A DNA stretch of 38,214 nucleotides from Pseudomonadota bacterium. GTDB lineage: Bacteria; Myxococcota_A; UBA796; GCA-2862545. A program made the position numbers and the translations under genes. Below are positions 4,798-37,578 of this stretch, in pieces. How positions within the stretch are numbered: position 1 is the stretch's first letter; every line of letters starts with the position of its first letter. Under the pieces are notes generated by a model that saw only the letters and a list, made by a program, of their open reading frames with translations, was not told the DNA's origin and made no database searches. The stretch is taken from the NCBI GenBank assembly GCA_023954855.1, contig JAGSGY010000054.1, positions 1 to 38,214 of the forward strand. Reading direction: 5' to 3'.

Positions 4798-4842
4798 GAG
4801 AGCCTCGCCCACGACAGGTTAGCTGCGTGCGCTGGAGGCTCG

Positions 4843-5799: not shown

Positions 5800-5882
5800 G
5801 GGTGACGCAGCACCTGCCATGCAGCGCTGCACCTTGCCCAGTCCCCTGAGAACCGGATAAGAAGCAGCTCATCGGAGGCTCT

Positions 5883-6128
5883 ATGCCCGTCATCGCCATT
5901 GGAATGCCCAGCGCGTGGGAACTCGGCGTCGTCCTCGTCATCGTCCTGGTCATCTTCGGACCCGGAAAGCTGCCGCAGGTCTTCCGTTCGCTCGGCCAAG
6001 GGCTCAAGTCGTTCCGCGACGCCCAGAAGGACGAGGGTGCAGGCGCTCCGAAGGACGTGACCCGTGCAGAGCTGCCGCCCGTGGTGGGCGAAGAAGCCCA
6101 CGAAGTCAAGACCAAGGAAATGGCCTAG
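5883..6128 (+). CDS. tatA: Sec-independent translocase subunit TatA/TatE
   Basis: The 81-residue protein has the TatA layout: a short N-terminal segment, one transmembrane helix (about residues 12-26), the FGPGKLP hinge, an amphipathic helix (about 30-47, LPQVFRSLGQGLKSFRDA) and an acidic flexible tail. TatA forms the pore-like component for export of folded proteins. The ATG at 5883 has GGAGG at 5874-5878. The gene is 83 bp downstream of mtnA and may be co-transcribed with it. tatB and tatC are not in the window. The stop codon overlaps that of the convergent hutI in a CTAG at 6125-6128. Confidence 0.9.
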   Translation: MPVIAIGMPSAWELGVVLVIVLVIFGPGKLPQVFRSLGQGLKSFRDAQKDEGAGAPKDVTRAELPPVVGEEAHEVKTKEMA

Positions 6129-7369: not shown

Positions 7370-7434
7370 GCTACCTATGACCGTCTTTCTGTATTCGTGC
7401 GGGTTCTTTTCGCCCGCCACGCTCGAGGTTCCCC

Positions 7435-8397: not shown

Positions 8398-8402
8398 GGG
8401 TC

Positions 8403-10528: not shown

Positions 10529-10633
10529 GGGCGCCTCCTTTCGAGTTCACCGGCGAGTAACGCGCGCTGCGGAGTCGATCCGCTCCCAGTCACCGCTCGT
10601 CATGGATAGACTGCATCGCCACCGGGAGCCCGC

Positions 10634-15377: not shown

Positions 15378-15386
15378 CCGAAGGAA

Positions 15387-16445: not shown

Positions 16446-16499
16446 AGACCCTCCACGGAGGTTCTACACCGAGAGACGGCGGGGTGTGGGGTGAGGCCT

Positions 16500-17225
<726 letters not shown>

Positions 17226-17267
17226 CCGAACTCCAAGCTGCTTCCCACCATACCGGAAGTCGGAGCC

Positions 17268-19697
17268 CTACATCAGGTGCCGGGGGTCCACGTCGACGTG
17301 AAGGCGAACACCCTTGCCGAGCGAAGGCTTGAAGAAGCGACGTACGTCCGCAAGCCAGGCCCTGAACACGCGAAGGTCTGCGCCTCTCAGCACAATCTGG
17401 AAGCGCCACCGGCCGACGAGCCTGGCCATGGCTGCCGGTGCCGGGCCCATTACGTCGACGCCCGGCGCATTTCGGGCGGTCTGGCGGAGCTTCTTGCTGA
17501 GGTCGCTCGCCGCCAGCTGTACCGCGCGACGGTCGACGCCGTCGAGGCGCAGCAGGACCATGCGGGTGTGCGGCGGGTAGCGGAGCGTCTCGCGCAGGCG
17601 GAACTCGCGCTCGTAGAAGCGCTCGATGTTGCCGAGCTCCTGCAGTGCGTAGTGCTCGGGCTTCCAGGTCTGGAGGAACACGCGACCCGGAGCGTGCCCG
17701 CGGCCGGCCCGTCCAGCGAGCTGCACAAGCAGTGCGGCCGTGCGCTCCGCCGCGCGGAAGTCGGGCATGCGAAAGCCGTGGTCGGCACTCACGACGACCG
17801 CCGTCTGCACCCCGGGAAAGTCGTGGCCCTTAGCGATGATCTGCGTGCCGACCAACAGCTGGGTCTTCTTGAGACGGAACGCCTCGAGGATGCGGTGGTG
17901 CGACCCGCGGACGGCCGTCGTGTCCGCATCCATACGCCCGATGGAGACCCCCGGGAACAGGCCGGCGAGCACTTCTTCGACCCTCTCGGTGCCCTTGCCG
18001 AGCTCTTCGAGGCCGGGCTTGCCGCAGGCGGGACAGTCGTCGGTGTAGGTGCGCTTGAGCCCGCAGTAGTGGCAGGACAGGGTGCGCGCGCGCTGGTGCA
18101 GCGTCATGGTGATGCCGCAGTTCGGGCACTCCCAGGTTCCGCCACAGCTCGTGCACTGCACCATGGTGGCGTAGCCGCGGCGGTTGTAGAGCACCACGGC
18201 CTGGCCGCCTTGCACGAAGGTCTCGCGCAGCGCCTCGACCACGACGGGGGCGAACACCGGCCGCTTGCCGTCGTCTCCGGGCTCGAGCTCGGTCAGGTCC
18301 ACCAGCTCGATCTTCGGCACCGGCCGGGGCGTGGCGCGCTTCGGAAGGCGGAGCATGGTGTAGCGCCCAGCCTTGGCGTTGGCCCAGCTCTCCATCGAAG
18401 GCGTCGCCGAAGCCAACACGACCGGGCAGTGATGGCGGGTGCCGAGCACCACCGCGAGGTCGCGGGCGTTGTAGCGAAGGCCATCGTCTTGCTTGTACGA
18501 GTCGTCGTGCTCTTCGTCGACGACGATCAGGCCGAGGTCCCGGAAGGGCGCGAACAGCGCGGATCGGGCGCCCACGGCGATCGAGGCCTCACCCGCACGA
18601 ATGCGGCGCCACTCGGCCAAGCGCTCGGACCCGGTGAGTCCCGAGTGGAGCACCGCGACGCCATCGCCGAAGCGACCCTTGAAGCGCCCGACCAGCAGCG
18701 GCGTGAGGCCGATCTCCGGAACCAACACGAGCACCTGGCGTTGCCGCTCACGCACCGCCTTGGCCGCTCCGAGAAACACCTCGGTCTTGCCCGAGCCGGT
18801 AACCCCGAACAGCACGAAGGTTCCTTCGGCCTCGGCCCCGGTCAACGCGGCGAGTGCCTGGGTCTGGTCGGGGTTCAGGGGGGGCGCAACGGCAGCACCC
18901 AGGGGGCTCTCTTCATCGAGTGGATCACGACGCTCCCTCTCGACGATCTCGACCGCACCGGCCTCGACGAGGCGCTTGAGTGCAGCGCGCACGGTCTGGC
19001 CTTGCTCGGCGACGAGCTCGGGCACATCGGCCGAGCCTCCGTCGCGCTCAAGGGCCTGTAGGACCGCCCGCATGCGCTTGCCGGCCTTGGGAAGCACGAG
19101 CAGCGGGTCCTTCACGAGCAACCTGGCCATGCGCACCATGCCGCGGGAACCCGAGACCTCCTTCTCTTCCCACAGCGCCAGATCCGCGCGGACGAGGGCA
19201 TCCATGGCCTTCTTGATGACGTCCTTCTCGAGCTCGTCCTGAAGACGACGGACCAGCCCGCGCCGGGTGAGTCCCCGTCGGCTGATCACCTCGCGCAGCA
19301 CCTGCGCCTTGGCTCCATCGATGCTTCGGGCCGTGAGCGCCTCGATGCCGTCATCGGTCGGGTGCAGCACGAGCATGGTCTTGGCCCGAATCTCGGACGG
19401 CAGCGCGGTCTGAATCACCTGGCCCAGCGGAGTCAGGTAGTAGCGCGACACCCACTCGAAGAACGCGAGTTGCCGGGCATCGAAGGCGGGCCGCTCATCG
19501 ACCAGGCGCTGAATCGGCTTGACCTTGCCGACCGGCACGCCTGCCGAGTCATCGCTTAGGCCGACGACGTACCCGGTCTCAGAGGTGCGGCCGAAGGGCA
19601 CGAGCACCACGTGGCCCACCGCGACCTGCATCCACGCCGGAACGGCATAGGTGAACGGCCCCTGCACGGGGCGAGCGATGGCGACCAGGGCAAACAC
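17268..19697 (-). CDS. priA: Primosomal replication restart helicase PriA
   Basis: The 809-residue protein has the full PriA layout: an N-terminal 3'-DNA-binding domain (about 1-100, with the YLTPLGQ segment), a winged-helix part, then a helicase core with Walker A GVTGSGKTE (about 298-306) and DEEH (394-397). Eight zinc-binding cysteines follow (515, 518, 524, 527, 542, 545, 555, 558), then the late helicase motifs GTQIIAKGHDFP and QLAGRAGRG, and a C-terminal domain. PriA reloads the replisome at stalled forks. The start is GTG at 19697; no strong ribosome site is seen. It lies 47 bp downstream of one lipoprotein gene and 42 bp upstream of another, an unusual setting for priA. Confidence 0.96.
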   Translation of the reverse strand: MFALVAIARPVQGPFTYAVPAWMQVAVGHVVLVPFGRTSETGYVVGLSDDSAGVPVGKVKPIQRLVDERPAFDARQLAFFEWVSRYYLTPLGQVIQTALPSEIRAKTMLVLHPTDDGIEALTARSIDGAKAQVLREVISRRGLTRRGLVRRLQDELEKDVIKKAMDALVRADLALWEEKEVSGSRGMVRMARLLVKDPLLVLPKAGKRMRAVLQALERDGGSADVPELVAEQGQTVRAALKRLVEAGAVEIVERERRDPLDEESPLGAAVAPPLNPDQTQALAALTGAEAEGTFVLFGVTGSGKTEVFLGAAKAVRERQRQVLVLVPEIGLTPLLVGRFKGRFGDGVAVLHSGLTGSERLAEWRRIRAGEASIAVGARSALFAPFRDLGLIVVDEEHDDSYKQDDGLRYNARDLAVVLGTRHHCPVVLASATPSMESWANAKAGRYTMLRLPKRATPRPVPKIELVDLTELEPGDDGKRPVFAPVVVEALRETFVQGGQAVVLYNRRGYATMVQCTSCGGTWECPNCGITMTLHQRARTLSCHYCGLKRTYTDDCPACGKPGLEELGKGTERVEEVLAGLFPGVSIGRMDADTTAVRGSHHRILEAFRLKKTQLLVGTQIIAKGHDFPGVQTAVVVSADHGFRMPDFRAAERTAALLVQLAGRAGRGHAPGRVFLQTWKPEHYALQELGNIERFYEREFRLRETLRYPPHTRMVLLRLDGVDRRAVQLAASDLSKKLRQTARNAPGVDVMGPAPAAMARLVGRWRFQIVLRGADLRVFRAWLADVRRFFKPSLGKGVRLHVDVDPRHLM

Positions 19698-23388: not shown

Positions 23389-24069
23389 TTGCGCCAAACT
23401 CGTGTTGTCGATGACGCCCGTGAAGTAGCGTGTCGCTCAAGGCGTGGAGTCCCCATCACAGCCCGTGTCCCAACCCTTCCGCTCTCCGACCATGAAGAGG
23501 CCCAGCGCCCCGAGAGCCTGGCCTTCGATGCCGCGCACGGGGTCGAGACGGCGAGCTTCGCGGCCTGGCACACCTACGAGCCCAGTCCGCCCTCCGTGGT
23601 CGAGGCGGTGCTCGATGCCCTAATGGACAGAATCGAGGGGGCCAGCATCGACGCGGCCGACTGCACGTTCATCGACATCGGCTGTGGCAAGGGACGCGTG
23701 CTGCTGATCGCCTCACAGCGCGGCTTCTCGCGCGTTCTCGGCGTGGACCCCGCGAACAAGCTCTGCCGTGCCGCCGAGCAGAACGTGCGCACATGGTCTG
23801 CTCGGCATCCCGACGCGACCCGCATCGACGTGTGGTGCGAGGACGCCAGCCGGCTGACCTGGCCGAAAGGTCCCCTGTTGCTGTACCTCTACAACCCCTT
23901 TCACGAGGCGGTCATGGACCGAATGGTCCGCTCGCTGCCGCGCGACCGGCCCGTCTGGCTCGCCTACGTGAACCCGCTGTTCGCGGAGCCTCTGCGGCGC
24001 CATGGCTTCGCCCTGATCGAAGAGGCCACCGAGGTCGACCACTACGCGTGGAAGCTGTTCCGCCGGTAG
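23389..24069 (+). CDS. Class I SAM-dependent methyltransferase
   Basis: The up to 226-residue product contains SAM-binding motif I, FIDIGCGKGRVLL (about 93-105), the acidic end of motif II in VLGVDPANKLC, and a post-I region ending in PLLLYLYNPFHEAVMD, where Asn-Pro replaces the usual post-motif acid. The start is uncertain: no ATG or GTG precedes the core, and TTG at 23389 is the first candidate in frame. The N-terminal 40 residues are weakly conserved-looking. Its stop (TAG, 24067-24069) abuts the stop of the convergent glycosyltransferase gene (TAGCTA). The acceptor is unknown; a role in tailoring the neighbouring lipid pathway is possible but the gene is on the other strand. Confidence 0.82.
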   Translation: MRQTRVVDDAREVACRSRRGVPITARVPTLPLSDHEEAQRPESLAFDAAHGVETASFAAWHTYEPSPPSVVEAVLDALMDRIEGASIDAADCTFIDIGCGKGRVLLIASQRGFSRVLGVDPANKLCRAAEQNVRTWSARHPDATRIDVWCEDASRLTWPKGPLLLYLYNPFHEAVMDRMVRSLPRDRPVWLAYVNPLFAEPLRRHGFALIEEATEVDHYAWKLFRR

Positions 24070-25221
24070 CTACCCCAGCGCCAGAATGACGTCGGCCGCA
24101 GTCACGGCCCCACCTGCACCCTCGAAGCTCGCCTGAATGGTTCGAGCGGCGTCCCGGTAGGCGGGCTCATCGAGCACGGTCCGCACAGCCCTTGAGAGCT
24201 TTGCGGCGGTCACCCGACCAAAGGGCACCCGAACGCCCGCTCCGGCGGTCACCACCTGGGCAGCCACAACCGGCTGATCATCGGTGATCGGCAGCAGCAC
24301 GACCGGAAGGCCGTGGGCCAGCGCCTCGCAGGTGGTGTTGTGGCCCGCGTGGCAAACCACGGCATCGAGGTGCGGAAGTAGCGCCAGCTGCGGCACGAAG
24401 TCCCGGCGAATCACATTCGGGGGCGGGTCGGGCACGAGCGACTCTGGCGCCACGAGAATGACCTGGAGGTCTTCGGCACCGAGGCCCGTGCAGACGGCAT
24501 CGTAGAAGCGCTTTCCCCGCTCGCTGTTCACGGTACCAAGCGAGACGAGGACCTTCGCGCGGTCCTGCAGCGCGTCCCAGGGGAACGCGACTTCGCTCCG
24601 GCCGGTCGCGATGGCCGGCCCCACGAACACCGCTTGGTCTGGGTAGCTGGAGCGCTCGCCGGCCACCTCGGGCGTCGAGAAGATGATCACGCGTTCGGGC
24701 GACACATCGGCGTTGGCGACCGGGTCGACACCCACGTCGCGCTGGATCTGGAGCACCTGCTCGCGCTGCCACTCCGCGACCTTGGGGAACGCATCGAGCG
24801 CGTCGCCCAGACTTGCCGACGTCGTGGCCGAGGTCACCCAGCGAATGCCGAGCTTGCGTGCGACCAGCGCACCCGCGACGGCCTGGTGATCGACGACCAA
24901 GAGGTCAGGTGCAAAGGCGGTGACCCGCTCTTCGGTCTCAGCGAACGATGCGCGTGCCAGCGGCGCGATGAAGTCTTCCCAGAAGACCTTGAGAGCGGCC
25001 ATGCCACGCACCGATCGCGCCTTGCGAGACACCGCCGCCGCATGGGCCGGGTCGCCCTCACCCAAGGCGAGCAAGGTGCCCCCACGAGGCAAGCGCCCGG
25101 CGAGCTTGCTCGCGTGTCCCAACCAACCCACTTCGTGTCCGCGGGACAGAAGCTCAGCACCGACGGACAGGGTCGGGTTGATGTGGCCGGTGAGCGGCGG
25201 CACCACGAAGAGTACGCGCAT
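24070..25221 (-). CDS. MGT-type UDP-glycosyltransferase (GT1 family), last gene of lipid synthase operon
   Basis: The 383-residue protein has the GT-B fold of GT1/MGT enzymes. The N-terminus VVPPLTGHINP carries the catalytic-base His13, and the C-terminal donor-binding stretch HAGHNTTCEALAHGLPVV, followed by PITDDQP, is the UGT signature. These enzymes glycosylate hydroxyls of hydrophobic acceptors such as macrolides, carotenoids and lipids. Its ATG overlaps the stop of the upstream hydrolase by one base (TGATG at 25219-25223), so it is translationally coupled to the synthase operon. The obvious inference is that it glycosylates the product of the two large synthases. Sugar and acceptor are not known. 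No transporter follows; the next gene is convergent. Confidence 0.9.
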   Translation of the reverse strand: MRVLFVVPPLTGHINPTLSVGAELLSRGHEVGWLGHASKLAGRLPRGGTLLALGEGDPAHAAAVSRKARSVRGMAALKVFWEDFIAPLARASFAETEERVTAFAPDLLVVDHQAVAGALVARKLGIRWVTSATTSASLGDALDAFPKVAEWQREQVLQIQRDVGVDPVANADVSPERVIIFSTPEVAGERSSYPDQAVFVGPAIATGRSEVAFPWDALQDRAKVLVSLGTVNSERGKRFYDAVCTGLGAEDLQVILVAPESLVPDPPPNVIRRDFVPQLALLPHLDAVVCHAGHNTTCEALAHGLPVVLLPITDDQPVVAAQVVTAGAGVRVPFGRVTAAKLSRAVRTVLDEPAYRDAARTIQASFEGAGGAVTAADVILALG

Positions 25222-25991
25222 CAGATCTCCCCAAACCAGCGGACGATGCGGTCACGCACCTGGGCGGTCGCTTCCCAGATGACCGAGTGGCTGCAGCCGT
25301 CGAACACATCGAAGACCACGTTCTCGCCGGCGTCAGCGAGCAGTTGACCATCGCCGAGCACGTCGGACTCGGCACCGTAGATGGCGAGGATGGGAAGTGA
25401 GAGCGCGGCGAAGGCCTCGTCGGGCCAGGACGTGGAGGCTCTGAGGTCCTCGAGCAACGTGGTGCCCTCGACCAGGGCCCCAGCCTGCTTGGCCAGGCGG
25501 TTGCGCTTGCGGCTGGAGTGGCGACCGAGCCAGCTGGCGAACACACGCTCGATGGTGGCGTCGCGCTCCTCGCCCGTGGTCGCGAGGGTGCCAACCATGG
25601 CCTCGCCCCAGCCCTTTCGGGGAAGCAACGCGTCGACGAGCACCAGACCCCGCACCCGCTCGGGGTAGCGAAGTGCGCACGCCACCGCGAGTAGGCCGCC
25701 GAAGCTGTTGCCGACCAGGTGGGCCTGTTCGATGCCCTCGGCGTCGAGCAAACCGACGAGCTCATCCACCAGCGTATCGAGATCGTAGCCCTGCGTAGGA
25801 CGCGCGCTGCGTCCATGCCCACGCAGGTCGTAGAGCCGCACGCCGCGGAGCTGCGCCACCGGGTTGGCGACGGTGAAGTACCAACTCGAGAGGTTGTCCA
25901 TCACCAGGCCATGCGCGAAGACGACGTCTGCAGGCCCATCTCCGAGGCGCTGCACGTGCAGGCCCACGCCGTTGACCGACACCTCAGCCAT
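25221..25991 (-). CDS. Alpha/beta hydrolase 1 of the lipid synthase operon
   Basis: The 256-residue alpha/beta-hydrolase has the nucleophile elbow VGNSFGG (Ser96), an acid in YGAESDVLG (Asp210) and a histidine in DGCSHSVIWE (about 235), so a complete triad is visible. The oxyanion segment FAHGLVMDN is near residue 25-33. It is a paralogue of the upstream hydrolase: both share YDLRGHGRS/ADLRGHGRS, RPxxGYDLxTL and a WYFT motif. Its ATG overlaps the stop of hydrolase 2 by 8 bp, and its stop overlaps the glycosyltransferase ATG. In this setting it could release the chain from ACP as a trans-acting thioesterase; the large synthases have no thioesterase domain. The frame extends to 26408, but the ATG at 25991 is the natural start. 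Confidence 0.9.
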   Translation of the reverse strand: MAEVSVNGVGLHVQRLGDGPADVVFAHGLVMDNLSSWYFTVANPVAQLRGVRLYDLRGHGRSARPTQGYDLDTLVDELVGLLDAEGIEQAHLVGNSFGGLLAVACALRYPERVRGLVLVDALLPRKGWGEAMVGTLATTGEERDATIERVFASWLGRHSSRKRNRLAKQAGALVEGTTLLEDLRASTSWPDEAFAALSLPILAIYGAESDVLGDGQLLADAGENVVFDVFDGCSHSVIWEATAQVRDRIVRWFGEI

Positions 25992-26742
25992 GCAGGAACT
26001 CCACGATGGTGGAGGTGAGCAACTGCGGCGACTCGACCGGAACGAAGTGACCGCCAGGCACGATGGAGAGGCGGCTGTTCGGCAGGCACTGCGTGAGCCG
26101 TTCAGCGGCCGGGCGACAGGCCGAAGTCTCGCCAAACACGAGCAACGTCGAGGCTGAGACGCCGGCAATCTGGGCGTCGGTGAGGCGTGGCTCGCTTCGC
26201 ACATCGGCGAGCAGCGTCGTGTCTTGGACCAGCGCGCGAATGCCCTCGACCAGCCGTCGGGCGCGGCGACCGCCACCGAGCACGGCCTCCCGCACCGCCT
26301 CGGGAAGCATCGCCAACAGCTCTTCGGGGCCCGCGTTCTCGGCAATGTCGAACACGCCCGCATCGCCTGGAGGGAGCGGCAGGTCGACCAAGACGAGCCG
26401 ACGAACACGGCCGGGGTGCTGCATCGCGAAGGTCAGCGCCACCAGCCCACCGTAGGAGTGACCGACCAGGTCGATGGGCTCGGCTACCGCGACTGCATCG
26501 AGCAAGCCCGCAACGTCCGCGCGGAGGGTGGCGAGGTCGTAGCCCGTGCTCGGACGGGAAGAGCGACCGTGGCCGCGTAGATCGGCCATCCACACGGTCT
26601 GCCGGGTCGCCAGCGCCGGCGCCAGCGTGAAGTACCACTGCGCCAACGAGCCGAGCAGCAGGCCGTGGAGACAGAGGACGGGCGGGCCCTCACCCATCGA
26701 CAGGGCGTGGACGCGGAGGTCGGGAAGCTCGATCAGCGGCAC
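25984..26742 (-). CDS. Alpha/beta hydrolase 2 of the lipid synthase operon, acid residue apparently missing
   Basis: The 252-residue protein has the elbow VGHSYGG (Ser96) and a C-terminal histidine in PGGHFVPVE. At the position of the catalytic acid, where the paralogue has GAESD, the sequence reads GETSACRP with no Asp. The acid may be supplied elsewhere (Glu208 is close), or the enzyme may be impaired or have another role. It overlaps the ACP gene by 10 bp upstream (26733-26742) and hydrolase 1 by 8 bp downstream. The ATG at 26742 lies inside the ACP coding end. Possible functions are proofreading release of stalled chains or acyl transfer; none can be shown from sequence. Confidence 0.87.
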   Translation of the reverse strand: MPLIELPDLRVHALSMGEGPPVLCLHGLLLGSLAQWYFTLAPALATRQTVWMADLRGHGRSSRPSTGYDLATLRADVAGLLDAVAVAEPIDLVGHSYGGLVALTFAMQHPGRVRRLVLVDLPLPPGDAGVFDIAENAGPEELLAMLPEAVREAVLGGGRRARRLVEGIRALVQDTTLLADVRSEPRLTDAQIAGVSASTLLVFGETSACRPAAERLTQCLPNSRLSIVPGGHFVPVESPQLLTSTIVEFLHG

Positions 26743-27005
26743 GACTCGACGAAGTCGACGACCTCGCCCACGGTGAGGGCGATGATCTGGTCCAGCTCGA
26801 GGTTCGAGATCCAGCCCACGAAGTCGACGTGGTCGCCGAAGTGGGCCTGCACGGACTCGGCGAGCGCGACAAACTCGATGCTCTCGAGCTCGAGATCGTC
26901 CGAGAAGGAGGTGTCGAAGGCGACCTCCATGTCGTCATCCCACTCGTCTCCGATGACGTCGCGGATGAAGCCAGCCAAGATCTGCAGGGTGTCTTCTCGG
27001 CTCAT
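26733..27005 (-). CDS. Discrete acyl carrier protein of the lipid synthase operon
   Basis: The 90-residue, strongly acidic protein has the four-helix ACP pattern with the attachment serine in DDLELESIEFVALAE (Ser42). The usual G-x-D-S is replaced by E-L-E-S, as in some specialised carrier proteins. Length and start are typical. The ATG overlaps the stop of the second synthase (ATGA at 27002-27005) and its 3' end overlaps hydrolase 2 by 10 bp. The second synthase has no ACP of its own, so this protein is the likely trans-acting carrier for its KS, AT and DH domains, or a carrier for the finished chain. It needs 4'-phosphopantetheine from a PPTase. Confidence 0.93.
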   Translation of the reverse strand: MSREDTLQILAGFIRDVIGDEWDDDMEVAFDTSFSDDLELESIEFVALAESVQAHFGDHVDFVGWISNLELDQIIALTVGEVVDFVESCR

Positions 27006-30000
27006 GTCTCGCTCCAGGCGACGATATGCGCGCCTTCGCGCACCAGCTTCACTGAGATGCCGTCCACCACGAGATGGTCCGCATCGCCCCCCTCTATCGC
27101 AAGCAGCGAGCGCGGGTCTGCACCGCGGCGCTGCGCGGCGACGGTCTTTGCAGCCTGCACACGTGCGGCGGCATCGGGCGCGCCGTCGAAAAAGGACAGA
27201 TCACCAGCCGAAACAAAGCCTTCATCCACCGTTTCGACGGGGACCAATGCGATAGCTCCGGAGCCGTCGGACGCTCGTGCCACCGACACACCGGCGTCAT
27301 GGGCGACCGCGACCTGCCACCCGGTCGCGGCGAGAGGACCGCCGAGCACCGGGGTGTCGAGGTCGGGACCCAGCGGCACCTCCACGGGGAACAGCGGCGG
27401 CACTCCGTCGGCGTGAAGCCGGAACCGCACGGCATCCTTCGCGGCGATGCGGTCATCGAGGAAGCGTCGCTGTCCACGCGGTCCCGAGGCGAGCATGGCC
27501 GCCCGCTCGGACTCGCCGAGGTAGCGACGCATCAGCCAGTCGCGGCTCGGTGCGCGGTGGGCCGACTCATCGAAGATGCGGTAGGCGCCGCGATCGACGG
27601 AGAGCATGTGGTGCTCGGGCTGCCGCATGACCGCCCAGACGTGCGGGTCGGTCTCGAAGCGGTGGTCGACCCAGTTTCGGATGCGGCACCAGAGCCGGCC
27701 CTCGTAGACCAGCTCGAGATCGGCGGCGAGCGAGCTGTCGTCGACCCCGAGAATGCGCACGCGACAGAGCACCTCTGCCCCAATCGGAGGATGGTCCTCG
27801 AACCACTCGATCAGGTCCATGCCGACGGGCATCGCGAGCTGGTCGAGGTCCTCGGCGGCCATCAGCCAGTAGCCCAAGATCTGGCCGGCATTGTCGAGCA
27901 GGGAACCGAGACCTTCGGGGGCGGTGATGATGCCCTCGATGCCTGAGTCGTCCATCGGTCCAAGGGTGGTGATGCCCTGGTAGCGCGGACCGTGGAACAT
28001 CCAGCGCTCTTGGTAGAGCTGAACTGCGTCCACGGGGGTGGACCGGGGCGATGGCAGCGCATCAAACGCTGGCGCCGGCGCCGCTGGAAAGGCTGGCGCC
28101 ATGCGGAGGCGGATCTCGGCGTAGTCGGTGATCGACGCACGGACCCAGTCCCCATCGCGCTCAGCGACGAGCTCGACCGTGATCTCGGGCTCGACGACGA
28201 GCCACTTGAACGCCTGAAGCTCCGTGGCTTCAACCACGACCCAGCCCGGCACGAGCTGGCGGGCCGCGTCGAGCAAGAGCTCGATGGTCATCGTCATCGG
28301 CACGACCGGGTGCCCATCGGAGGGTGTGCTCCAGCCCGGCGGCTGAGGGAAGAAGCTGTGGTCCCACAAGGCCGGATCCGTATGAACGGACAGCGTACGC
28401 GACCCAGACCAGCGCTTCGGCGCGCTGCGCTCCCGATAGGCCTCGAGCACATCTGCACCCGAGCGCGACAGTGCAGACAGCGCATCGCCGAACGCTGACA
28501 TCACGGGACTGTCGTCGGTCGTGGCCACCGCTGTCGATGCGGAGAGACGGCCGCGAAGGTCAGGCCCAAGCGTGAGTAGCGGCGCACCGAGCGCGAGGTC
28601 CACCGTCGGACCGCGCTTGGGAACGAGTGCGTCGACCTCGACGTCTGCCCCCTCGACCCACAGCGCCAACGCGAGGTTTCGCAGCTGCGCCAGGCCGCTG
28701 CGCCGGGGTTCGTTGGCACTCACCGCGAGGTGCGGCTCCCCCGCTAGCGTATCGTCGACGAACCCGGTCAGCGACCCAGTGCCCACCTGCACGAAGACGC
28801 GCGCGCCCTCGGCGAACAGGCGCTGCACGAGCTCGGTGTAGCGAAGCGGCTCGACCAGGTGGCGAATCACCAGATCCCGGATGGCATCGGGCGCATCGGG
28901 GTAGCGTTCGACCGTCGTGGCCGACCAGAGCGGCAGGGCGGCGGGCTTGAGGTCGAAGTCCGCGAAGTGCTTGCGGTGCGGCTCGACATAGTCGGCGAAC
29001 AATGCCGAATGAAAGCCCGACTTGAACGGCAGGACCTGGCAGATGACGCCGGCATCGATCAGTCGCTCACGTGCCACCGACACCGAGTCTTGCTCACCGC
29101 AGAGAATCACCTGGTGAAGGCAGTTGTCGTGCGAGATGGCGATGTCCTCGAGTCCGGCGATGGCCTCGCGGGCCTGGCCGACCCCGCATCCAGCGGCCGC
29201 AAACAGCACGCCGGGGACCTCGAGGGTTCCGGGGCCCGCCGCCTCGAGAAAGGCGTCGACCTCGGCATTCGAGAGCATGCCCGTCGCCATCATTCCCGAC
29301 CACTCGCCGATGCTGTGGCCGAGCACGAGGTCGGGAGCGCAGCCGAGTCGCCGGAGCGCGGCATCGAGGAAACGTCCAAGCTCGACCACTCCCCTGCCCG
29401 TCTGTTCCAGGTCGGTGGGTGCCGTGTGAACCGGCGGCTCGAGCCCGAAGTGCTCGGCGACGGAGGCGACCTCGGGGGCAAACTGAGCCTCGATGCCGGG
29501 GAACATCCACGCGACCTTGCCGCCAGCGCTCACCAGACCAGACGGGCTGAACCAGATCGCACCCCGCCCACGCCAAGCTTCGCCGCGGACCACCGCCTTG
29601 CGAGCCCGCGCGATGCGCTTGGGCGTCGGATCGACGACGGCCAGCCTGCAAGGACCCTCACCGCCAGATCTCCCAGCGTCGAGGGCCACAAGCAGCGCCT
29701 CGGGCGTGGCGGCGGCGAGGCGGAGAACGAGGGCATCGGCCGCGTCGATGGGCTTGAGGGCGCGCGGCACTGCCACCGCATCGCCGTGGCCTTCGAGCAC
29801 CACATGCGCGTTGATGCCGCCAAAGCCGAAGGCGTTCACCGCCGCCACCCGTTGTGGCGAGGACCAGGGCTTGGCCTTGCCGATCACCGAGAAGCGTGTG
29901 GCCTCGAGCTCTGCGCGCGGGTTGTCGCAGTGCAGCGATGGAGGCAGCACGCCGTGGTGCACCGCGAGCACCGCCTTGATCAGTCCTGCCGCACCGGCCG

Positions 30001-31144
30001 CCGGCATGGTGTGGCCGATCATCGTCTTTACCGAGCCAAGAACCGCTTCGGGCCCCTCGCCAAACACCTCGGTCAGGGTGCGCAGCTCGGCGCGGTCACC
30101 GGCGTTCGTGCCGGTGCCGTGGGCCTCGACCAAACCGAGGGCATCGCGGTCCACGCCGGCATCCTGCCAGGCGCGCTCGAGGGCGAGCACCTGCCCGGCG
30201 ACCCGCGGCACCATCACCGAAGCGGCGCGTCCATCACTGGCACTGCCCACCCCGCGAAGCACCGCGTAGATCTTGTCCCCGTCGGCTTCGGCACGGTCGA
30301 GGCGCTTGAGCGCCAGCATGCCGATGCCCTCGCCGATCACCAGGCCGTCGGCGCCCTGGTCGAAGGCCGCGAGGGTGCCGCTACGCGACAGCGCACCGAG
30401 CTGGGCAAAAACCGACCAGAAGGTGATGTCGGGCGAGACGTGCACTCCGCCGGCAATCACCACATCGCAGCGGCCGTCGCGCAGCTCGCGAACGGCGTGT
30501 TCGACGGCAATCAGCGCACTCGCACAGGCGGCATCGACCGTGTACGCGGGACCATTCAAGTCGAGGCGGTTCGCGATACGCGACGCGGCGAGGTTCGGCA
30601 CCAGTCCGATCGCGGTGTCGGGCCCATAGGCGCCGGCCTCATCCTGAAAGCGGGCCTTGATCGTCTCGACCACCGCCGGATCCAGCCCAGGCGCAAGCTC
30701 CCGTAAGATCGACGCGAGCTGGCCCGCCTCACGCACCTTCCGGTTCAGTCGAACCAGCCCCGGGGTCAGGTAGCCACCGCGTCCGAGGATCACGCCCACG
30801 CGCTGGTTGGCCAGACTTTCGCGGTCCAGCCCTGCATCGTCGAGGGCATCGGCCGCGACCTTCAGGGCGAGCAACTGATCGGGCTCAGCACCCTCGGCGG
30901 CCACCGGCATGATGCCGAAACGCCCGGCCTCGAAGGGCATCACATCCGGAAGAAAGCCCCCACGACGGCTGTAGACGCGGTCGACGGCCTTGCTGTTTGG
31001 GTCGTAGAACTCCCCGTCCCAGCGGGCATCGCTGGCCTCGGAAACGCAGTCGACGCCGCCCTTGATGTTGCGCCAGTAGCTCGCCACGTCGGGCGCACCG
31101 GGAAACACGCAGCCAAGGCCAATGACGGCAACTCCACGCTCCAT
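27002..31144 (-). CDS. Secondary lipid/polyketide synthase B: KS-AT-DH with C-terminal PPTase-like domain
   Basis: The 1380-residue protein has, in order: KS (about 3-455; Cys207 in DAACASA, His342 in EAHGTGT, His378 in IGHT); AT (about 545-830; Ser611 in LGHSIGEW, His712 in SGFHSAL); PKS-type DH (about 915-1165; His929 in WDHSFF and Asp1084 in LLDNAGQ); and a C-terminal domain (about 1185-1375) with the layout of Sfp-type phosphopantetheinyl transferases (RRFLDDRIAAKDAVR, then VAVAHDAGVSVA). The metal-binding D-x-E and W-x-K-E-A motifs are not preserved in that domain. It lacks KR, ER and ACP. KS1, KR, ACP and ER are on synthase A, whose stop overlaps this ATG by one base (TGATG, 31142-31146). 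The two proteins probably form one iterative complex. Confidence 0.93.
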   Translation of the reverse strand: MERGVAVIGLGCVFPGAPDVASYWRNIKGGVDCVSEASDARWDGEFYDPNSKAVDRVYSRRGGFLPDVMPFEAGRFGIMPVAAEGAEPDQLLALKVAADALDDAGLDRESLANQRVGVILGRGGYLTPGLVRLNRKVREAGQLASILRELAPGLDPAVVETIKARFQDEAGAYGPDTAIGLVPNLAASRIANRLDLNGPAYTVDAACASALIAVEHAVRELRDGRCDVVIAGGVHVSPDITFWSVFAQLGALSRSGTLAAFDQGADGLVIGEGIGMLALKRLDRAEADGDKIYAVLRGVGSASDGRAASVMVPRVAGQVLALERAWQDAGVDRDALGLVEAHGTGTNAGDRAELRTLTEVFGEGPEAVLGSVKTMIGHTMPAAGAAGLIKAVLAVHHGVLPPSLHCDNPRAELEATRFSVIGKAKPWSSPQRVAAVNAFGFGGINAHVVLEGHGDAVAVPRALKPIDAADALVLRLAAATPEALLVALDAGRSGGEGPCRLAVVDPTPKRIARARKAVVRGEAWRGRGAIWFSPSGLVSAGGKVAWMFPGIEAQFAPEVASVAEHFGLEPPVHTAPTDLEQTGRGVVELGRFLDAALRRLGCAPDLVLGHSIGEWSGMMATGMLSNAEVDAFLEAAGPGTLEVPGVLFAAAGCGVGQAREAIAGLEDIAISHDNCLHQVILCGEQDSVSVARERLIDAGVICQVLPFKSGFHSALFADYVEPHRKHFADFDLKPAALPLWSATTVERYPDAPDAIRDLVIRHLVEPLRYTELVQRLFAEGARVFVQVGTGSLTGFVDDTLAGEPHLAVSANEPRRSGLAQLRNLALALWVEGADVEVDALVPKRGPTVDLALGAPLLTLGPDLRGRLSASTAVATTDDSPVMSAFGDALSALSRSGADVLEAYRERSAPKRWSGSRTLSVHTDPALWDHSFFPQPPGWSTPSDGHPVVPMTMTIELLLDAARQLVPGWVVVEATELQAFKWLVVEPEITVELVAERDGDWVRASITDYAEIRLRMAPAFPAAPAPAFDALPSPRSTPVDAVQLYQERWMFHGPRYQGITTLGPMDDSGIEGIITAPEGLGSLLDNAGQILGYWLMAAEDLDQLAMPVGMDLIEWFEDHPPIGAEVLCRVRILGVDDSSLAADLELVYEGRLWCRIRNWVDHRFETDPHVWAVMRQPEHHMLSVDRGAYRIFDESAHRAPSRDWLMRRYLGESERAAMLASGPRGQRRFLDDRIAAKDAVRFRLHADGVPPLFPVEVPLGPDLDTPVLGGPLAATGWQVAVAHDAGVSVARASDGSGAIALVPVETVDEGFVSAGDLSFFDGAPDAAARVQAAKTVAAQRRGADPRSLLAIEGGDADHLVVDGISVKLVREGAHIVAWSET

Positions 31145-34100
31145 CAACGCATCCGCTCGAGCTCGGCGCGCATGTAGACGACCTGTCGATCGGTGCCCGT
31201 CTGCAGCTCGCCGATCAACGCATCCACGCCCTCATCCGGGTCAATCAGTCCGATGCCGAGTCGCGCGTACTGCCGCTCGAGTGCGTCGGACACCATGCCG
31301 CCACCACCCCAAGGGCCCCAGTCCAAGGACACGGTCCGACCCGTCCGCGCATGGGCCAGGTGGTCGAGCGCGTCGTTTGCCGCGGCGTAGTCCGCCTGAC
31401 CGCGGTTTCCAAACGCCCCAGCCACACTGGCGTAGAACGCGACGGTCGTCTCGTCGTCGACCGCGGAGAGCAGGTTGAGAGCGCCGAGGAGCTTGGTGTC
31501 CACCACCCGCAGGAAGCTCTCCTCGGTCTTGTCCCGCAGGAGCTTGTCTTCGAGCACACCAGCTCCGTGAACCACGACATCGAGACGGCCATAGTCACGC
31601 TGAACTCTTGCCACGACCGCAGCGACGGCATCGGCATCGCGGACGTCGACGGCCACGTACTCGAGCTTCGCGCCCGCGCCGCGGATGTACGCGAAGGTCT
31701 CGCGCATCACCCGCTGGCTGTAGAGCTTGCCCACCCGCTTCTCGATCTCGGCGGGACCGCTGGCCACCCCCTCTGCAATCACGGCGGCGCGAAGCGCATC
31801 TCGGCCCTCGGCACCCGCGAAGGCGGCGTCCTCGACCGCCGGGGGCTCAGGACTGCGACCCAGCAGAATGAAGGTGCCCTTGGAGCGCCTTGCCAGCTCT
31901 CGAGCGACCCGCGCGGTGATGCCTCGTGCACCGCCGGTGAGCAGGTAGACCGTGTTGGCGTCGAGCGTGCTGCGCGGCGCCGAGTCTCGATCCCGCGCCA
32001 CCATCTCGCGCCCCTGGCGCTGTCCATCGCGCCACGACACCAGATCGTGGGTGCCGGTGTCGAGCAGCTCATCCCGCAGCTGGGCAACCCCATCGGTGCC
32101 ATCGAGCTGCACCAGACGCACCGAGACCGGCCACTCCTTGCGCACCGTCTTCAGCAGCGCGGGAAGACCACTGGTTCCGCTCTGGGACACCACGAACAAC
32201 CGCTCTGCGCCTGCCGCAATCGCCTGCCTGAGCAGCGCCGCCACCTTCCACAGCCGCCCCGGAAGCGAGGCGTCTGCACGCCACTCCTGCACAAAGAGCA
32301 CCAGCGTGTCGACGCTGTCGGGCTCGAGCTCATCGCGCACCACGCGTACCCGAGCACCGTCCCCGGCAAGGGCCTCTTGAAGCGGCTCGGTCAGCGAGGA
32401 GCGGCCCACCAGGGCGATGCGCTGCTGATCGAGTCGACCCGCCACCGGTGCAGAAAGTGCCGTCGTGCGGGGAACAAAGCGAAGGAGACGGTCCGGAACG
32501 TCGAACGAGACTTCCTCGGTCGCGGGGGCGTCGCTGCCCTCGGCTTCGGAGCCCTCGAGCCAGTCGAGAATCCCGCGAAGGGTCTTCACGCCAGAGAGCT
32601 CCTCGACCAGCTTGTCGCGGTCGACCTGCCCGCCACCCAAGCCGAGCTCATCGGAAAGCACGCCGAGGATCTCGATGCGCTTGATCGAGTCGATAGACAG
32701 ATCGGCTTCGAGGTCCAGGTCGAGGTCGAGCATCTCGGCCGGATAGCCGGTGCGCTCACTGACGATGCCGAGCAGGGCCTCGCCGGCGTCCCGATCGGGC
32801 TTGGCCTCGACCGGGGCCTCTTCGAGTGTCGAGGGCGCGGCGGCTTCGGTCGGTGGTGCGTGTTCACCCAGGTAGGCCAGCATGATGCGGCGCTGGGTCT
32901 CGGCCTGCTCTTTGAGGGTCTCGAGGTAGTCGAGCACCACCCGGTCCCGTCCTCCGGCGAGGGACGTGATGACGGGCTCCGTGACGGGAGTCATCGCAAA
33001 GTCGGGCAGCTCGCCACGCGTCGGCCAGGCGCGGTGACCGTTGACCTTCCACAGGGTGGGTGATGGCAGCGGCGGTGCCTCGTCCAAGGCCACCGCTCGG
33101 CAGCCGCGACGTGCGAACAGCGGCGCGAGATCGACGGGAATGCCGTGCACAGCCAGCTGCGCAACGAGACGGACCAGGCCATCCAACGCACCGCCTCCCC
33201 GGGGGTCCTCGAGCGACAGTGCCGTGATGTCCCGGTCTCCCAGCGTCTTCTCGACGAAGCGAGTGAGGACGCGCCCCGGTCCGACCTCGAGGAAGATCCG
33301 CGCTCCCGCGGCATGCATGGCCTCGAGCTGCTCCACGAAGCGAACCGGCGAGACGACGTGCTCCGCGAGGGTCTCGGCGACCGCGACGGCATCGGCGGCG
33401 TAGGGCGCCGCGGTGCGGTTCGCGTAGACCGTGGCCTCGGGCGCGCGAACCGAGAAGTCGGCGAGCGCATCGGCAAACGCGTGCCGCGCATCGGCGACGA
33501 CCGGCGAGTGGAAGGCCGCGGCGACGGGAAAGCGCTTGACCTGAATGCCTGCCGCTTCGAGCCGCTCTTGCGCCGCGGCCACCCCCTCAGTCGTCCCGGA
33601 GATCACGGTCTGGTTGGGGTCGTTGAGGTTCGCGAGCACCACGCGGTCATCGAGGTGCTGGGCCACCGCATCGGCGGGCGCCTTGGCCGAAGCCATCGTG
33701 CCCGGGTCATCCCCAGCGGCTGCGAGAATCACCTCGCCGCGACGCGTGGACAGCGCCGTCAGCTCCGCGGGGTCGAGCGCGCCCGCCACACTGAGCGCGA
33801 CCAACTCACCGTAGGAATGGCCCGCGAGCTGATCGGGCTTCACGCCCAGGGTACGCATCAGCGCTGCAGCGGCGGTCTCGACGAGGCCGAGCGCGGGCTG
33901 GGCCACGCGGGTGTCGGTGAGGGCTGCGCGAACGCCCGCACGCCGGGCCGGATCGAAGGTGTCGGCCGTGTAGAGCTGCTCGGCCCATCCCTCGGGAAGC
34001 AGCTCCTGAAGCTCGGGGAATGCGACAAACAGCTCACCGAGCATGCCTGGACGCTGGCTTCCTTGGCCGGGGAACAAGAACGCGACCTTGCCGGGCTCGG

Positions 34101-37100
34101 CGCCTGTCGAGCGCAAGATGCCGCGCCCGTTCTCGCCGGCGATGGCGCGCTCGAGCTTGTCGCGCAGGTCGTCACGATGATCGGCCACGATGGCGAGCTG
34201 GACCGGACCGTCGCCTCGCGAAGCCACGGCGGCCGCCAGGTCGCGAACCGTGCTCGTGTCCAGATGCTCCAAGACGCGCTCGAGGTCGGCGAGGTCGCGA
34301 AAGACCAGCACCTCGGAGGGCCAGACCTGAAGACCCCGCACCTCCGGCTTCTGTTCGTGGCCGCGCATCAGCAGGTGGAAATTGGTGCCACCAAATCCGA
34401 AGGCGCTCACCGCACCGTGTCGCTCTGCACCCGGCCAAGGCGCCGGCTGGCTGCGGAAGACGAAGGGGCTGGTCTCGGGACTCCAGGCCGGATTTGGCTG
34501 GCGCACGTGAAGCGTGGGCGGAAGCACCCGGTGATGCAGCGCCAGTGCGACCTTGATCATGCCGGCGATGCCTGCCGCGCACTTGGTGTGGCCGATGTTC
34601 GACTTCACCGAGCCGAGGGTCACCTGCCCAGGCCGCACGCCGGCGCGCGAGTAGACCTCGGTGAGGGTGCCGAGCTCGGTGCGGTCGCCGACCACCGTTC
34701 CCGTTCCGTGCGCCTCGACCAAGCCGACCGCCGTCGGGGCGATTCCGGCGCGTTCGTAGGTGCGCTCGAGGGCGCGCATCTGCCCCTCTTTGCGCGGAGC
34801 GGTCAGCCCAAGGCTCTTGCCATCGCTGGACCCGGCGATGCCCTTGACCACTGCGTAGATCCGGTCGCCGTCCCGCTCCGCATCCTCGAGACGCTTGCAG
34901 ACGACGACTGCCACGCCTTCGCCGAGGGAGATGCCGTCCGCGTCGGCATCAAAGGGCCGCGAGCGCCCCGTCTTCGAGAGCGCATGCACGCTCGAGAACA
35001 TCAGGTAGTCGCCGATGGCGTTGTGTAGATCGGCGCCGCCCGCGAGCACCATGTCGGAGGTGCCGGCAGCGAGCTCCTTGCAGGCCAAGTCCACCGCGGC
35101 CAGCGACGACGCACACGCCGCATCCACCGTGTAGTTCACGCCGCCGAGGTCGAGGCGATTGGCGATGCGGCCGGCGATGACGTTGGCGAGCACACCCGGG
35201 AACGAGTCCTCGGTGAGCGTGGGAAGCACCGCATCGAGTTCGGGCGGAAGATCGCCCATGTACTGCGGAAACAGCGCGCGAAAGCCGTAGGCCGAAGCCA
35301 GATCCGTTCCGGCCTCGGCGCCGAAGATCACCGAGGTGCGCTCACGATCGAAGGGAGTGTCGCCGTAGCCCGCATCGTCGAGGGCTTGCTTGGCCGCCTC
35401 GAGTGCCAGCAGCTGCACAGGCTCGATCGCCGCGAGGCTGCGCGGTGGAATGCCGTAGTCGAGAGGGTTGAAGTCGATGGCGGGCAGGAAGCCGCCCCAC
35501 TTGCTCGCCGACTTCGCACCAGGCGTGGAGTCCGGGTCGAAGTAGCGCTCGATGTCCCAGCGCTCGGCGGGGACTTCGGTGACCGCATCGCGGCCGAGCA
35601 CGAGGTGGCTCCAGAAGGTGTGGACGTCGGGTGCGCCCGGGTAGAAGCAGGCCATGCCGACGATGGCCACGTCGAGACCGCGAGCGACCGGCTTGGGCTC
35701 GGGGGCCGCAAGGAATGCGGACGCCCCGGCGCTGACCTCTTCGTGGAGCGCTGCGATGGTCGTGGTGCTTCCCCGAAGGGCGGCCACCTGACCGATCATG
35801 AACATGCCTTCGCTGCGCTGCGTGTCCTCGTCGACGTCGACGAGCTGGGGCCCTTCCCGGCGGATGCCCTTGGACGCGATGCGCAGGCGGCCGAGGTTCA
35901 TCTTCTCGAGGGCTTCCCAGATGACCTCGGAGGGCTCGCCGGCCGCTTCGAGCTCGCGGCGCTTGGCCTCGAAGGCATCCACGAAGGGGCTCGGTGCGCA
36001 ACGGGTCGCGTGCCCTGGCGCACTGGTGACCAGAGCGGTGTCCGTGCACCCGAGCGCAGCGGCCTGGAATGTCGGGGTGATGGCACCGGTGCTGACCGCC
36101 TCGGTCGTGAACAAGTAGGCGGTGCCCATGATCACGCCGATCTTGGCTCCGTGTGCAGCGAGGGGAGCCACAAGCGCGGACACCATCGCGGCCGAGCGGC
36201 CATCGTGGATGCCACCGGCGAAGATCAGCGACAGCTCGTGCAGTGCATCGTGCTTGAGGAGTCGCTCGACGAACTGCTCCCAGAGCACAAAGCTGGTGCG
36301 GGGGCCGACGTGACCGCCGCACTCCCTGCCCTCGAAGACAAAGCGCCGCGCACCGTCCTTCAGGAACAGGTCGAGAAGTCCCGGTGAAGGCACGTGCAGA
36401 TAGGTGGGAATGCCCTCGGCTTCGAGCTCGCGTGCCTGCGAGGGTCGTCCACCCGCGAGCAGGGCCACGGGGGGCCGCGCTGCTCGAACCGCCGCCAGCT
36501 GCTCAGCCCTCAGTTCTGGCGGAGCGAATCCAAGCAGGCCCACACCCCAGGGCTCATCGCCCAGGCGCTCGCGCGTTCCATCGAGCAGGTCCACCAGTCC
36601 CTGACCGCGCATCATCGACACGGCGAGGAAGGGCAGAGCGCCGCCCTTGGACACGGCCTCTGCAAAGCCCGCGACGTCGCTGACGCGGCTCATCGGGCCC
36701 TGGGCGATGGGGTAGCGGAGTCCGTGCGCGCGCGCGAAGGCCGACCCGGGAGCAAGCGGCTCAGAGGCCACCGCTTGGCCCAAGTGTCCGTCGATCTCGC
36801 GATTCAGTCCACGCACCAGGGAGAGGACCCGGGGAAAGCGCTTGGCCATCGGGGCGGCGAGGCAGCCGTCCTGGCCGACGGGAAGGAGCTTCTCGGAGAG
36901 TGGCCCGACGCCTAGGCTGTCGGGAATCTGCGCCGCGAGCGATGCGAGTGGAAGATCGGGACGCGCGAAGACCCGGCGTCCGCCGTGGACCTCCGTCTCG
37001 CTGCCGTCCATGCCGCCAACGGCCGCCTTGATGATGTCGGGCGCTGAGGACTCGGCCAGCAGCGCAAGTTGGCTGTCGAGCACCACACCCGCCGCTCCGC

Positions 37101-37578
37101 CGGCCACCGCCGCCGCCGAAGAGTGCGTGCCCATGCCGCCCTGCACCCAGATCGGCAGCTCCGTGCTTCGAACCAAGCGCTGAAGCAGCACGAAGGCCCC
37201 TTCTTCGCCCACCAGCCCGCTCGATTCGCTGCCCTTGGCGATCAAGCCGACCGCACCCGCTTGTTCTGCACGCGCGGCCGCGTCGACCGAGGTGACCTGA
37301 ACGAGGACTTTCTTGTCGGTGAACGGGGCGAGATCGGCGCCTTCCGTGAGCACGACCCAGTCCACGTGTGGGGGCAGCGCGGGCGCTGCAACGCCGTCAG
37401 GAATGCGCACTGCCACGAGCTTGGCACCGAGCGACTGCATCGCTAGCGCCGCGGCGTCGGCATCGCGGCCCAGATCGAGAATGCCGAGGCCATCCGTACG
37501 CGAGAAGGCCGCCACGAGCGAGACGTCGGGCCGCTCAAAGGGTGAGAGACCGAGAACTCGGGGAGGGGCGGTGCGCAT
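31144..37578 (-). CDS. Secondary lipid/polyketide synthase A: (NPD)2-KS-AT-ACP-KR
   Basis: The 2144-residue protein contains: a first nitronate-monooxygenase-like barrel (about 1-260, diverged); a second, intact one (about 275-565, FEGRECGGHVG with His423) resembling the flavin enoyl reductase PfaD; KS (about 633-1075; Cys822, His957, His997); AT (about 1163-1450; Ser1255 in AGHSYGE, His1357 in AAFHSP, the malonyl-type form); one ACP (about 1595-1675; Ser1631 in DLSIDSIKR, the PUFA-synthase form); and KR (about 1715-2125; TGGARG near 1881, Ser2051, Tyr2064, Asn2068). It would extend chains from malonyl-CoA and carry out both ketoreduction and enoyl reduction. The ATG at 37578 with GGGAG before it is preferred over an in-frame start at 37647. 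It opens the six-gene operon. Confidence 0.94.
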   Translation of the reverse strand: MRTAPPRVLGLSPFERPDVSLVAAFSRTDGLGILDLGRDADAAALAMQSLGAKLVAVRIPDGVAAPALPPHVDWVVLTEGADLAPFTDKKVLVQVTSVDAAARAEQAGAVGLIAKGSESSGLVGEEGAFVLLQRLVRSTELPIWVQGGMGTHSSAAAVAGGAAGVVLDSQLALLAESSAPDIIKAAVGGMDGSETEVHGGRRVFARPDLPLASLAAQIPDSLGVGPLSEKLLPVGQDGCLAAPMAKRFPRVLSLVRGLNREIDGHLGQAVASEPLAPGSAFARAHGLRYPIAQGPMSRVSDVAGFAEAVSKGGALPFLAVSMMRGQGLVDLLDGTRERLGDEPWGVGLLGFAPPELRAEQLAAVRAARPPVALLAGGRPSQARELEAEGIPTYLHVPSPGLLDLFLKDGARRFVFEGRECGGHVGPRTSFVLWEQFVERLLKHDALHELSLIFAGGIHDGRSAAMVSALVAPLAAHGAKIGVIMGTAYLFTTEAVSTGAITPTFQAAALGCTDTALVTSAPGHATRCAPSPFVDAFEAKRRELEAAGEPSEVIWEALEKMNLGRLRIASKGIRREGPQLVDVDEDTQRSEGMFMIGQVAALRGSTTTIAALHEEVSAGASAFLAAPEPKPVARGLDVAIVGMACFYPGAPDVHTFWSHLVLGRDAVTEVPAERWDIERYFDPDSTPGAKSASKWGGFLPAIDFNPLDYGIPPRSLAAIEPVQLLALEAAKQALDDAGYGDTPFDRERTSVIFGAEAGTDLASAYGFRALFPQYMGDLPPELDAVLPTLTEDSFPGVLANVIAGRIANRLDLGGVNYTVDAACASSLAAVDLACKELAAGTSDMVLAGGADLHNAIGDYLMFSSVHALSKTGRSRPFDADADGISLGEGVAVVVCKRLEDAERDGDRIYAVVKGIAGSSDGKSLGLTAPRKEGQMRALERTYERAGIAPTAVGLVEAHGTGTVVGDRTELGTLTEVYSRAGVRPGQVTLGSVKSNIGHTKCAAGIAGMIKVALALHHRVLPPTLHVRQPNPAWSPETSPFVFRSQPAPWPGAERHGAVSAFGFGGTNFHLLMRGHEQKPEVRGLQVWPSEVLVFRDLADLERVLEHLDTSTVRDLAAAVASRGDGPVQLAIVADHRDDLRDKLERAIAGENGRGILRSTGAEPGKVAFLFPGQGSQRPGMLGELFVAFPELQELLPEGWAEQLYTADTFDPARRAGVRAALTDTRVAQPALGLVETAAAALMRTLGVKPDQLAGHSYGELVALSVAGALDPAELTALSTRRGEVILAAAGDDPGTMASAKAPADAVAQHLDDRVVLANLNDPNQTVISGTTEGVAAAQERLEAAGIQVKRFPVAAAFHSPVVADARHAFADALADFSVRAPEATVYANRTAAPYAADAVAVAETLAEHVVSPVRFVEQLEAMHAAGARIFLEVGPGRVLTRFVEKTLGDRDITALSLEDPRGGGALDGLVRLVAQLAVHGIPVDLAPLFARRGCRAVALDEAPPLPSPTLWKVNGHRAWPTRGELPDFAMTPVTEPVITSLAGGRDRVVLDYLETLKEQAETQRRIMLAYLGEHAPPTEAAAPSTLEEAPVEAKPDRDAGEALLGIVSERTGYPAEMLDLDLDLEADLSIDSIKRIEILGVLSDELGLGGGQVDRDKLVEELSGVKTLRGILDWLEGSEAEGSDAPATEEVSFDVPDRLLRFVPRTTALSAPVAGRLDQQRIALVGRSSLTEPLQEALAGDGARVRVVRDELEPDSVDTLVLFVQEWRADASLPGRLWKVAALLRQAIAAGAERLFVVSQSGTSGLPALLKTVRKEWPVSVRLVQLDGTDGVAQLRDELLDTGTHDLVSWRDGQRQGREMVARDRDSAPRSTLDANTVYLLTGGARGITARVARELARRSKGTFILLGRSPEPPAVEDAAFAGAEGRDALRAAVIAEGVASGPAEIEKRVGKLYSQRVMRETFAYIRGAGAKLEYVAVDVRDADAVAAVVARVQRDYGRLDVVVHGAGVLEDKLLRDKTEESFLRVVDTKLLGALNLLSAVDDETTVAFYASVAGAFGNRGQADYAAANDALDHLAHARTGRTVSLDWGPWGGGGMVSDALERQYARLGIGLIDPDEGVDALIGELQTGTDRQVVYMRAELERMR

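Follow-up and report, generated by a model that had tools for sequence, protein, structure and literature searches.

A widespread six-gene operon of the uncharacterised Type M/N secondary lipid synthases, predicted to make a glycosylated long-chain lipid

Introduction

What is made by an operon that joins two large synthases to a discrete acyl carrier protein (ACP), two hydrolases and a glycosyltransferase, and is such an arrangement new? The locus lies in a window (the whole stretch of DNA analysed here) that comprises all 38,214 bases of contig C134, one of 178 contigs in a 6.1 Mb genome whose nearest named relatives are Deltaproteobacteria/Myxococcales MAGs. A preliminary description of the locus had proposed an iterative, reducing, PUFA-synthase-like system with a glycosylated product, in a layout that was possibly undescribed. 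The biosynthetic part of that proposal is supported; the novelty of the layout is not, as the operon is neither private to this genome nor architecturally new.

Results

The six genes all lie on the minus strand, spanning 37578 to 24070, and each overlaps the next, by 1, 4, 10, 8 and 1 bases in operon order (Table 1); they are a true operon of two large synthases and helper enzymes. The preliminary description had read six codirectional genes with overlapping junctions, and both this reading and its domain and gene annotation proved correct when set against Pfam, NCBIfam, AlphaFold models and alignment to relatives. Pfam supports two NMO domains, KS, AT, ACP and KR in gene A, KS and AT in gene B, Abhydrolase domains in both H1 and H2 (which are 36% identical to each other), and a GT1-type match for GT. 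The DH of B scores only 17 bits in Pfam, below the cut-off, and the C-terminal part of B is weak or silent; the discrete ACP, at 17.6 bits for PP-binding, is likewise below the Pfam cut-off. GT scores 185 bits against the NCBIfam MGT model TIGR01426, below its 260-bit cut-off, and has EryCIII-like matches.

Table 1. Genes and domains of the operon, in window coordinates
Feature	Position	Strand	Basis
Gene A, NPD1 (predicted pseudo-ER)-NPD2 (ER)-KS-AT-ACP-KR, 2144 aa	31144..37578	-	Pfam, NCBIfam, residues
NPD1, FabK/NMO-like TIM barrel without catalytic His	36889..37578	-	residues, model, PDB matches
NPD2, FMN-type enoyl reductase, catalytic His423 (GGHVG)	35719..36729	-	Pfam, residues, model
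KS of A, Cys822, His957, His997	34354..35673	-	Pfam, KS tree, residues
AT of A, malonyl type, Ser1255 with Arg1280	33229..34086	-	Pfam, residues
Single in-cis ACP, PUFA type (DLEADLSIDSIK, Ser1631)	32599..32811	-	Pfam, residues
KR of A, Ser2051, Tyr2064	31306..31950	-	Pfam, residues
Gene B, KS-AT-DH-PPTase remnant, 1380 aa	27002..31144	-	Pfam, NCBIfam, residues, model
KS of B, Cys207, His342, His378	29786..31138	-	KS tree, residues
AT of B, Ser611 and His712 kept, malonyl-binding Arg absent	28745..29527	-	residues
DH of B, PKS double hot-dog type, His929, Asp1084	27620..28423	-	residues, AlphaFold model
Degenerate Sfp-type PPTase remnant	27005..27547	-	alignment to relatives, model
Discrete acyl carrier protein, 90 aa	26733..27005	-	Pfam, NCBIfam, conserved in loci
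H1, alpha/beta hydrolase (thioesterase/esterase-like), 252 aa, GTG start	25984..26742	-	Pfam
H2, alpha/beta hydrolase, 256 aa	25221..25991	-	Pfam
GT, MGT/GT1-type glycosyltransferase, 383 aa	24070..25221	-	Pfam, NCBIfam, co-occurrence

When flanking genes were compared between relatives, none was conserved save an upstream methyltransferase. This LCM-family gene lies directly upstream of A in the genomes G001, G011, G020 and G046; the ortholog in the window genome (G000:C161:524-1294) is at a contig end, and an assembly gap probably parts it from the window. Because this copy sits by a contig end, the start of the operon may fall beyond the window. That a methyltransferase gene is usually found upstream of the six-gene unit is new here. 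On the other side, a gene with a methyltransferase domain at 23389-24069 (plus strand) converges on GT, stop codon abutting stop codon, and no homolog of it was seen beside the operon in relatives. The window also encodes, at 7435-8394, a secreted protein with long Asp-Thr/Asp-Ser repeats (DTDTDSD...), which is near the operon in relatives too.

Gene A begins with two fused barrels, as the preliminary description had it, although the account of them as an ER has to be corrected: they are FabK-like, and the first appears to be dead. FabK enzymes are the best PDB matches of the barrels, with PfaD far lower, and the fused ER is nearer FabK than PfaD. The catalytic His is kept in NPD2 in 76 of 77 relatives and never in NPD1, where R, K or L stands instead; since the second barrel alone keeps this residue, NPD1 is predicted to be a conserved pseudo-ER, an assignment that is new here. 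The AlphaFold models of NPD1 and NPD2 have a mean pLDDT of 90. TIM-barrel ERs work as dimers. In Schizochytrium, the ER barrels pair as a heterodimer, and one of them depends on the other for folding and for FMN binding (PMC13311796); by analogy with this pair, and since such ERs dimerise, NPD1 is probably the in-cis structural partner of the NPD2 ER. Downstream, the KS of A has its Cys-His-His residues in at least 77 of 78 relatives and the AT of A its malonyl-binding Arg in 74 of 75 sequences. Pfam confirms that the window has one in-cis ACP, as had been described, and no tandem array; the number of ACPs differs among relatives.

The second synthase was said in the preliminary description to carry a KS that is no chain-length factor, a PKS-type DH and a pseudo-PPTase, and all three assignments find support. 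The KS of B keeps Cys-His-His in 55 of 55 relatives. The His/Asp pair of the DH is complete in all 51-52 sequences, and the AlphaFold model of residues 861-1380 of B (pLDDT 89) matches PKS dehydratases. The last ~180 residues of B are a PPTase, in which an alignment with 19 relatives shows the GxDxE and KEA motifs to be lost in the window; they are degenerate in the nearest relative too and intact in many others, so that the same domain is an intact PPTase elsewhere. The fused PPTase thus appears, from its motifs, to be dead in the window and intact in relatives, which is new here. One PF01648 PPTase is encoded elsewhere in the window genome. A decayed or shrunken fused PPTase is also seen in Pseudonocardiaceae and Skermania (L103, L109, L114, L085), apparently independently of the window lineage. 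One B protein (L046:401-4771) finishes with a stretch of unrelated sequence that by eye we take to be TraB/GumN-like; a fusion would explain this, as would a chimeric contig.

The AT of B differs from that of A in that the malonyl-binding Arg is absent across relatives. This second AT appears to have lost the residue in a PfaB-like manner, a further observation that is new here. PfaB, which also lacks the malonyl Arg, has been demonstrated to act as a terminal acyltransferase for long chains (PMC12895367). The AT of B does not have the change of the GHSxG His to Tyr that PfaB has.

A scan with the NPD didomain returned at least 559 relatives, of which the best 80 are spread over Myxococcota, Actinomycetota, Bacteroidota, Planctomycetota, Acidobacteriota, Gemmatimonadota, Chloroflexota and other phyla; among them the NPD match continues into KS-AT in nearly all, and B, the ACP and a hydrolase then follow wherever the locus is long enough. 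Reading 19 loci further downstream revealed the ACP and GT in 19/19 and a hydrolase in 18/19. Bacteroidota copies have an extra second GT and two PapA-like acyltransferases, and a Streptomyces plasmid copy has the order PKS-KS-ACP-hydrolase-GT-methyltransferase. Of 58 related genomes, the 9 with A, and no others, have a GT ortholog; the chance of this co-occurrence is ~1e-10 by a naive estimate that is uncorrected for organism phylogeny, and the distances among A, B and GT correlate with a Mantel r of 0.80-0.90, likewise uncorrected. Gene order is kept far beyond chance, and the co-occurrence in related genomes on which the preliminary description had staked its proposal is evident in these counts.

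Prevalence was counted by the NPD didomain rather than by the whole operon in each genome. It is present in 15 of 284 Myxococcota genomes, 51 of 199 Streptomyces genomes, 65 of 150 Pseudonocardiaceae genomes, all eight Kibdelosporangium-group genomes (8/8), and 4 of the 5 genomes in the genus of Frankia californiensis. One record (L119), a 12.4 Mb genome titled Rhodococcus rhodnii NRRL B-16535, groups with the genus of Kibdelosporangium aridum and was not counted as Rhodococcus; its title is probably wrong.

To place the synthases we used a tree of 99 KS domains, with references that include C. pinensis YS-16 and F. californiensis rather than the exact strains of 2011, and with the window genome's own PUFA synthase and the Beijerinckia Type P synthase in place of PfaA, PfaC and HglE; TIGR02813/TIGR02814 scores served for comparison alongside it. 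Every A domain lies to the same side of a branch with SH-aLRT 99, and the same is true of the B domains (99); the 42 core A rows make up a branch supported at 100. C. pinensis is a member of the A clade and, together with Frankia californiensis, of the B clade; the window genome's own PfaA-like KS domains are on a different branch. The references nearest to A are the Type P synthases of Beijerinckia and Methylosinus (SH-aLRT 90). Type P (Azotobacter vinelandii, Beijerinckia indica) differs from the window operon in its surroundings and layout: it is accompanied by type III PKS-like genes and a separate PPTase, and lacks the N-terminal ER didomain and the GT-hydrolase unit. PDB sequence searches returned generic PKS KS domains only. 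The window genome's own canonical PUFA synthase is on contig C159 (L152, G000:C159:8000-27999) at 2854-17564, and a second pfaD with a KS gene is at a contig end (L153) of the same genome.

The closest match in layout is to two 'secondary lipid synthase' types that Shulse and Allen 2011 (PMC3098273) list as uncharacterised, Type M of Frankia, Renibacterium and S. avermitilis and Type N of C. pinensis. Gene A has their ER fused N-terminally to KS-AT-ACP-KR, and gene B their KS-AT-DH-PPTase layout, with PPTase motifs that are degenerate in the window; the combination of a fused pfaDA with a pfaBC-PPTase is closely like the Renibacterium cluster (PMC13291983). The A and B proteins of the Frankia and C. 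pinensis loci belong to the families seen in the window, and the ACP, hydrolase and GT genes that follow them are shared as well, the whole unit being present in Chitinophaga pinensis (Type N). What sets the window apart from Types M/N is the degenerate PPTase, the two hydrolases and, in its relatives, the upstream methyltransferase. Because the 2011 types and the Renibacterium-like fused layout both match, the window is a member of a known, uncharacterised kind of secondary lipid synthase. The layout had therefore been described before, for Renibacterium (Type M), and C. pinensis carries the unit. The excerpts of Shulse and Allen 2011 that deal with Types M/N do not mention conserved ACP, hydrolase and GT genes, and we found no report in the literature of a product for a Type M/N-like gene set.

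Discussion

We consider it likely that the operon encodes a two-subunit iterative type I FAS/PKS of Types M/N that makes a long-chain hydroxy-fatty-acid glycoside. From the observed domains, active-site residues and conserved gene set we infer the catalytic steps, together with chain length, sugar and product. The in-cis ACP would receive malonyl from the AT of A, and chain extension would fall to the KS of A; each cycle would be reduced by the KR of A, the DH of B acting in trans, and the NPD2 ER with NPD1 as its partner, though in some cycles reduction would go no further than the hydroxyl. A special first or last condensation might, as a guess, be the task of the catalytic KS of B, and the AT of B, presumably unable to use malonyl normally, could transfer the finished chain, perhaps to the discrete ACP. 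GT would add a sugar to the hydroxyl, and one or both hydrolases would release or esterify the product; H1 and H2 may also be esterases unrelated to release. The methyltransferase beside most Myxococcota copies probably methylates the product, and the single PF01648 PPTase elsewhere in the genome would make holo-ACP. The second GT and the two PapA-like acyltransferases of Bacteroidota copies fit the glycolipid assembly expected from this scheme.

It is very improbable that the product comes from a canonical PUFA synthase or heterocyst-glycolipid synthase. The PfaA model TIGR02813 is the best NCBIfam match to both A (876 bits) and B (464 bits), and the locus resembles PfaA-D in its KS-AT-ACP-KR order, PUFA-type ACP motif and flavin ER, and PfaB in the missing malonyl Arg of its second AT. 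However, A falls below the 1010-bit cut-off of that model, whereas in the C159 locus, which consists of PfaD, PfaA and a PfaBC fusion with a FabA-type DH, PfaA scores 1571 bits and PfaD 632 bits. PUFA synthases have a tandem array of 4-6 ACPs, a KS-CLF pair and FabA-type DH/isomerases; the window has one in-cis ACP, a FabK-like fused ER, a catalytic second KS and a PKS-type DH, with no ACP array, CLF or FabA-type DH, and its KS domains form a separate clade. The score and the catalytic second KS bear out the preliminary description in holding that this is no canonical PUFA synthase. The heterocyst glycolipid (hgl) island also combines an iterative lipid synthase with a glycosyltransferase, in a gene set with an HgdB/C exporter, but neither an hgl gene set with the HgdB/C ABC exporter nor a CLF is found among the six operon genes. 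Enediyne PKSs (PKSE) have KS-AT-ACP-KR-DH-PPTase on one polypeptide and no ER, a layout that differs from the two polypeptides, the ER and the two KS domains of the window. We also regard as unlikely, though less so, a glycosylated polyketide (macrolide- or pyrone-like) from a partly reducing iterative PKS in which the hydrolases would be cyclising or releasing thioesterases. A polyketide aglycone in place of a lipid is conceivable because the GT family also glycosylates macrolides, and the MGT-family and EryCIII-like matches of GT, together with a DH that is PKS-type and not FabA-type, are consistent with this. Yet the KS domains group with secondary-lipid synthases, beside the phenolic-lipid Type P, and the PUFA-type ACP motif, the full set of reducing domains and the PapA-like acyltransferases of Bacteroidota copies also argue against a polyketide.

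A specific form of the favoured hydroxy-fatty-acid glycoside, which we put forward tentatively, is a macrodilactone glycolipid of the glucolypsin/fattiviracin/cycloviracin class. In such a molecule the sugar 6-OH would link two glucosylated long-chain 3-hydroxy acids head to tail, with ester links made by the hydrolases or the AT of B. Compounds of this class are dimeric esters of glucosides of C19-C33 hydroxy acids, with O-methyl sugars in cycloviracin, and are produced by Streptomyces, Nocardia and 'Kibdelosporangium albatum' (PMC4365757), the last of which is now Allokutzneria albata of the Pseudonocardiaceae. The class thus has both its predicted chemistry and its producer lineages in common with the window system: the synthase is present in Streptomyces, Pseudonocardiaceae and the Kibdelosporangium group at the frequencies given above, and the clusters contain methyltransferase genes. 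Against this, the match is circumstantial, by lineage and chemistry alone, and the compounds have been reported far less often than the cluster occurs. No gene cluster for glucolypsin, fattiviracin or cycloviracin was found in the portions of the literature covered.

More broadly, one horizontally spread, multi-phylum pathway, present in a quarter of the sampled Streptomyces, might possibly lie behind a shared, so far unrecognised class of glycosylated long-chain hydroxy-fatty acids and the orphan glucolypsin, fattiviracin and cycloviracin, and perhaps behind Frankia glycolipids. The glycolipids of Frankia CpI1 are listed as 'not determined' (PMC4365757). Two other candidate links were rejected: papers on Frankia vesicle mutants name hopanoid, nif and NAD genes and not the A/B synthase, and the Rhodococcus glycolipids associated with an hglE-KS region are tied to trehalose genes and not to the A/B cluster.

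The system is ordinary in kind and well conserved. The synthase type was catalogued in 2011 without a product, and its linkage across phyla to an ACP, a hydrolase and a GT predicts a glycolipid. The putatively dead ER barrel and the PfaB-like AT are specific enzyme predictions, and the product is testable in culturable carriers, among them Chitinophaga pinensis, Pedobacter, Streptomyces, Kibdelosporangium and Frankia.
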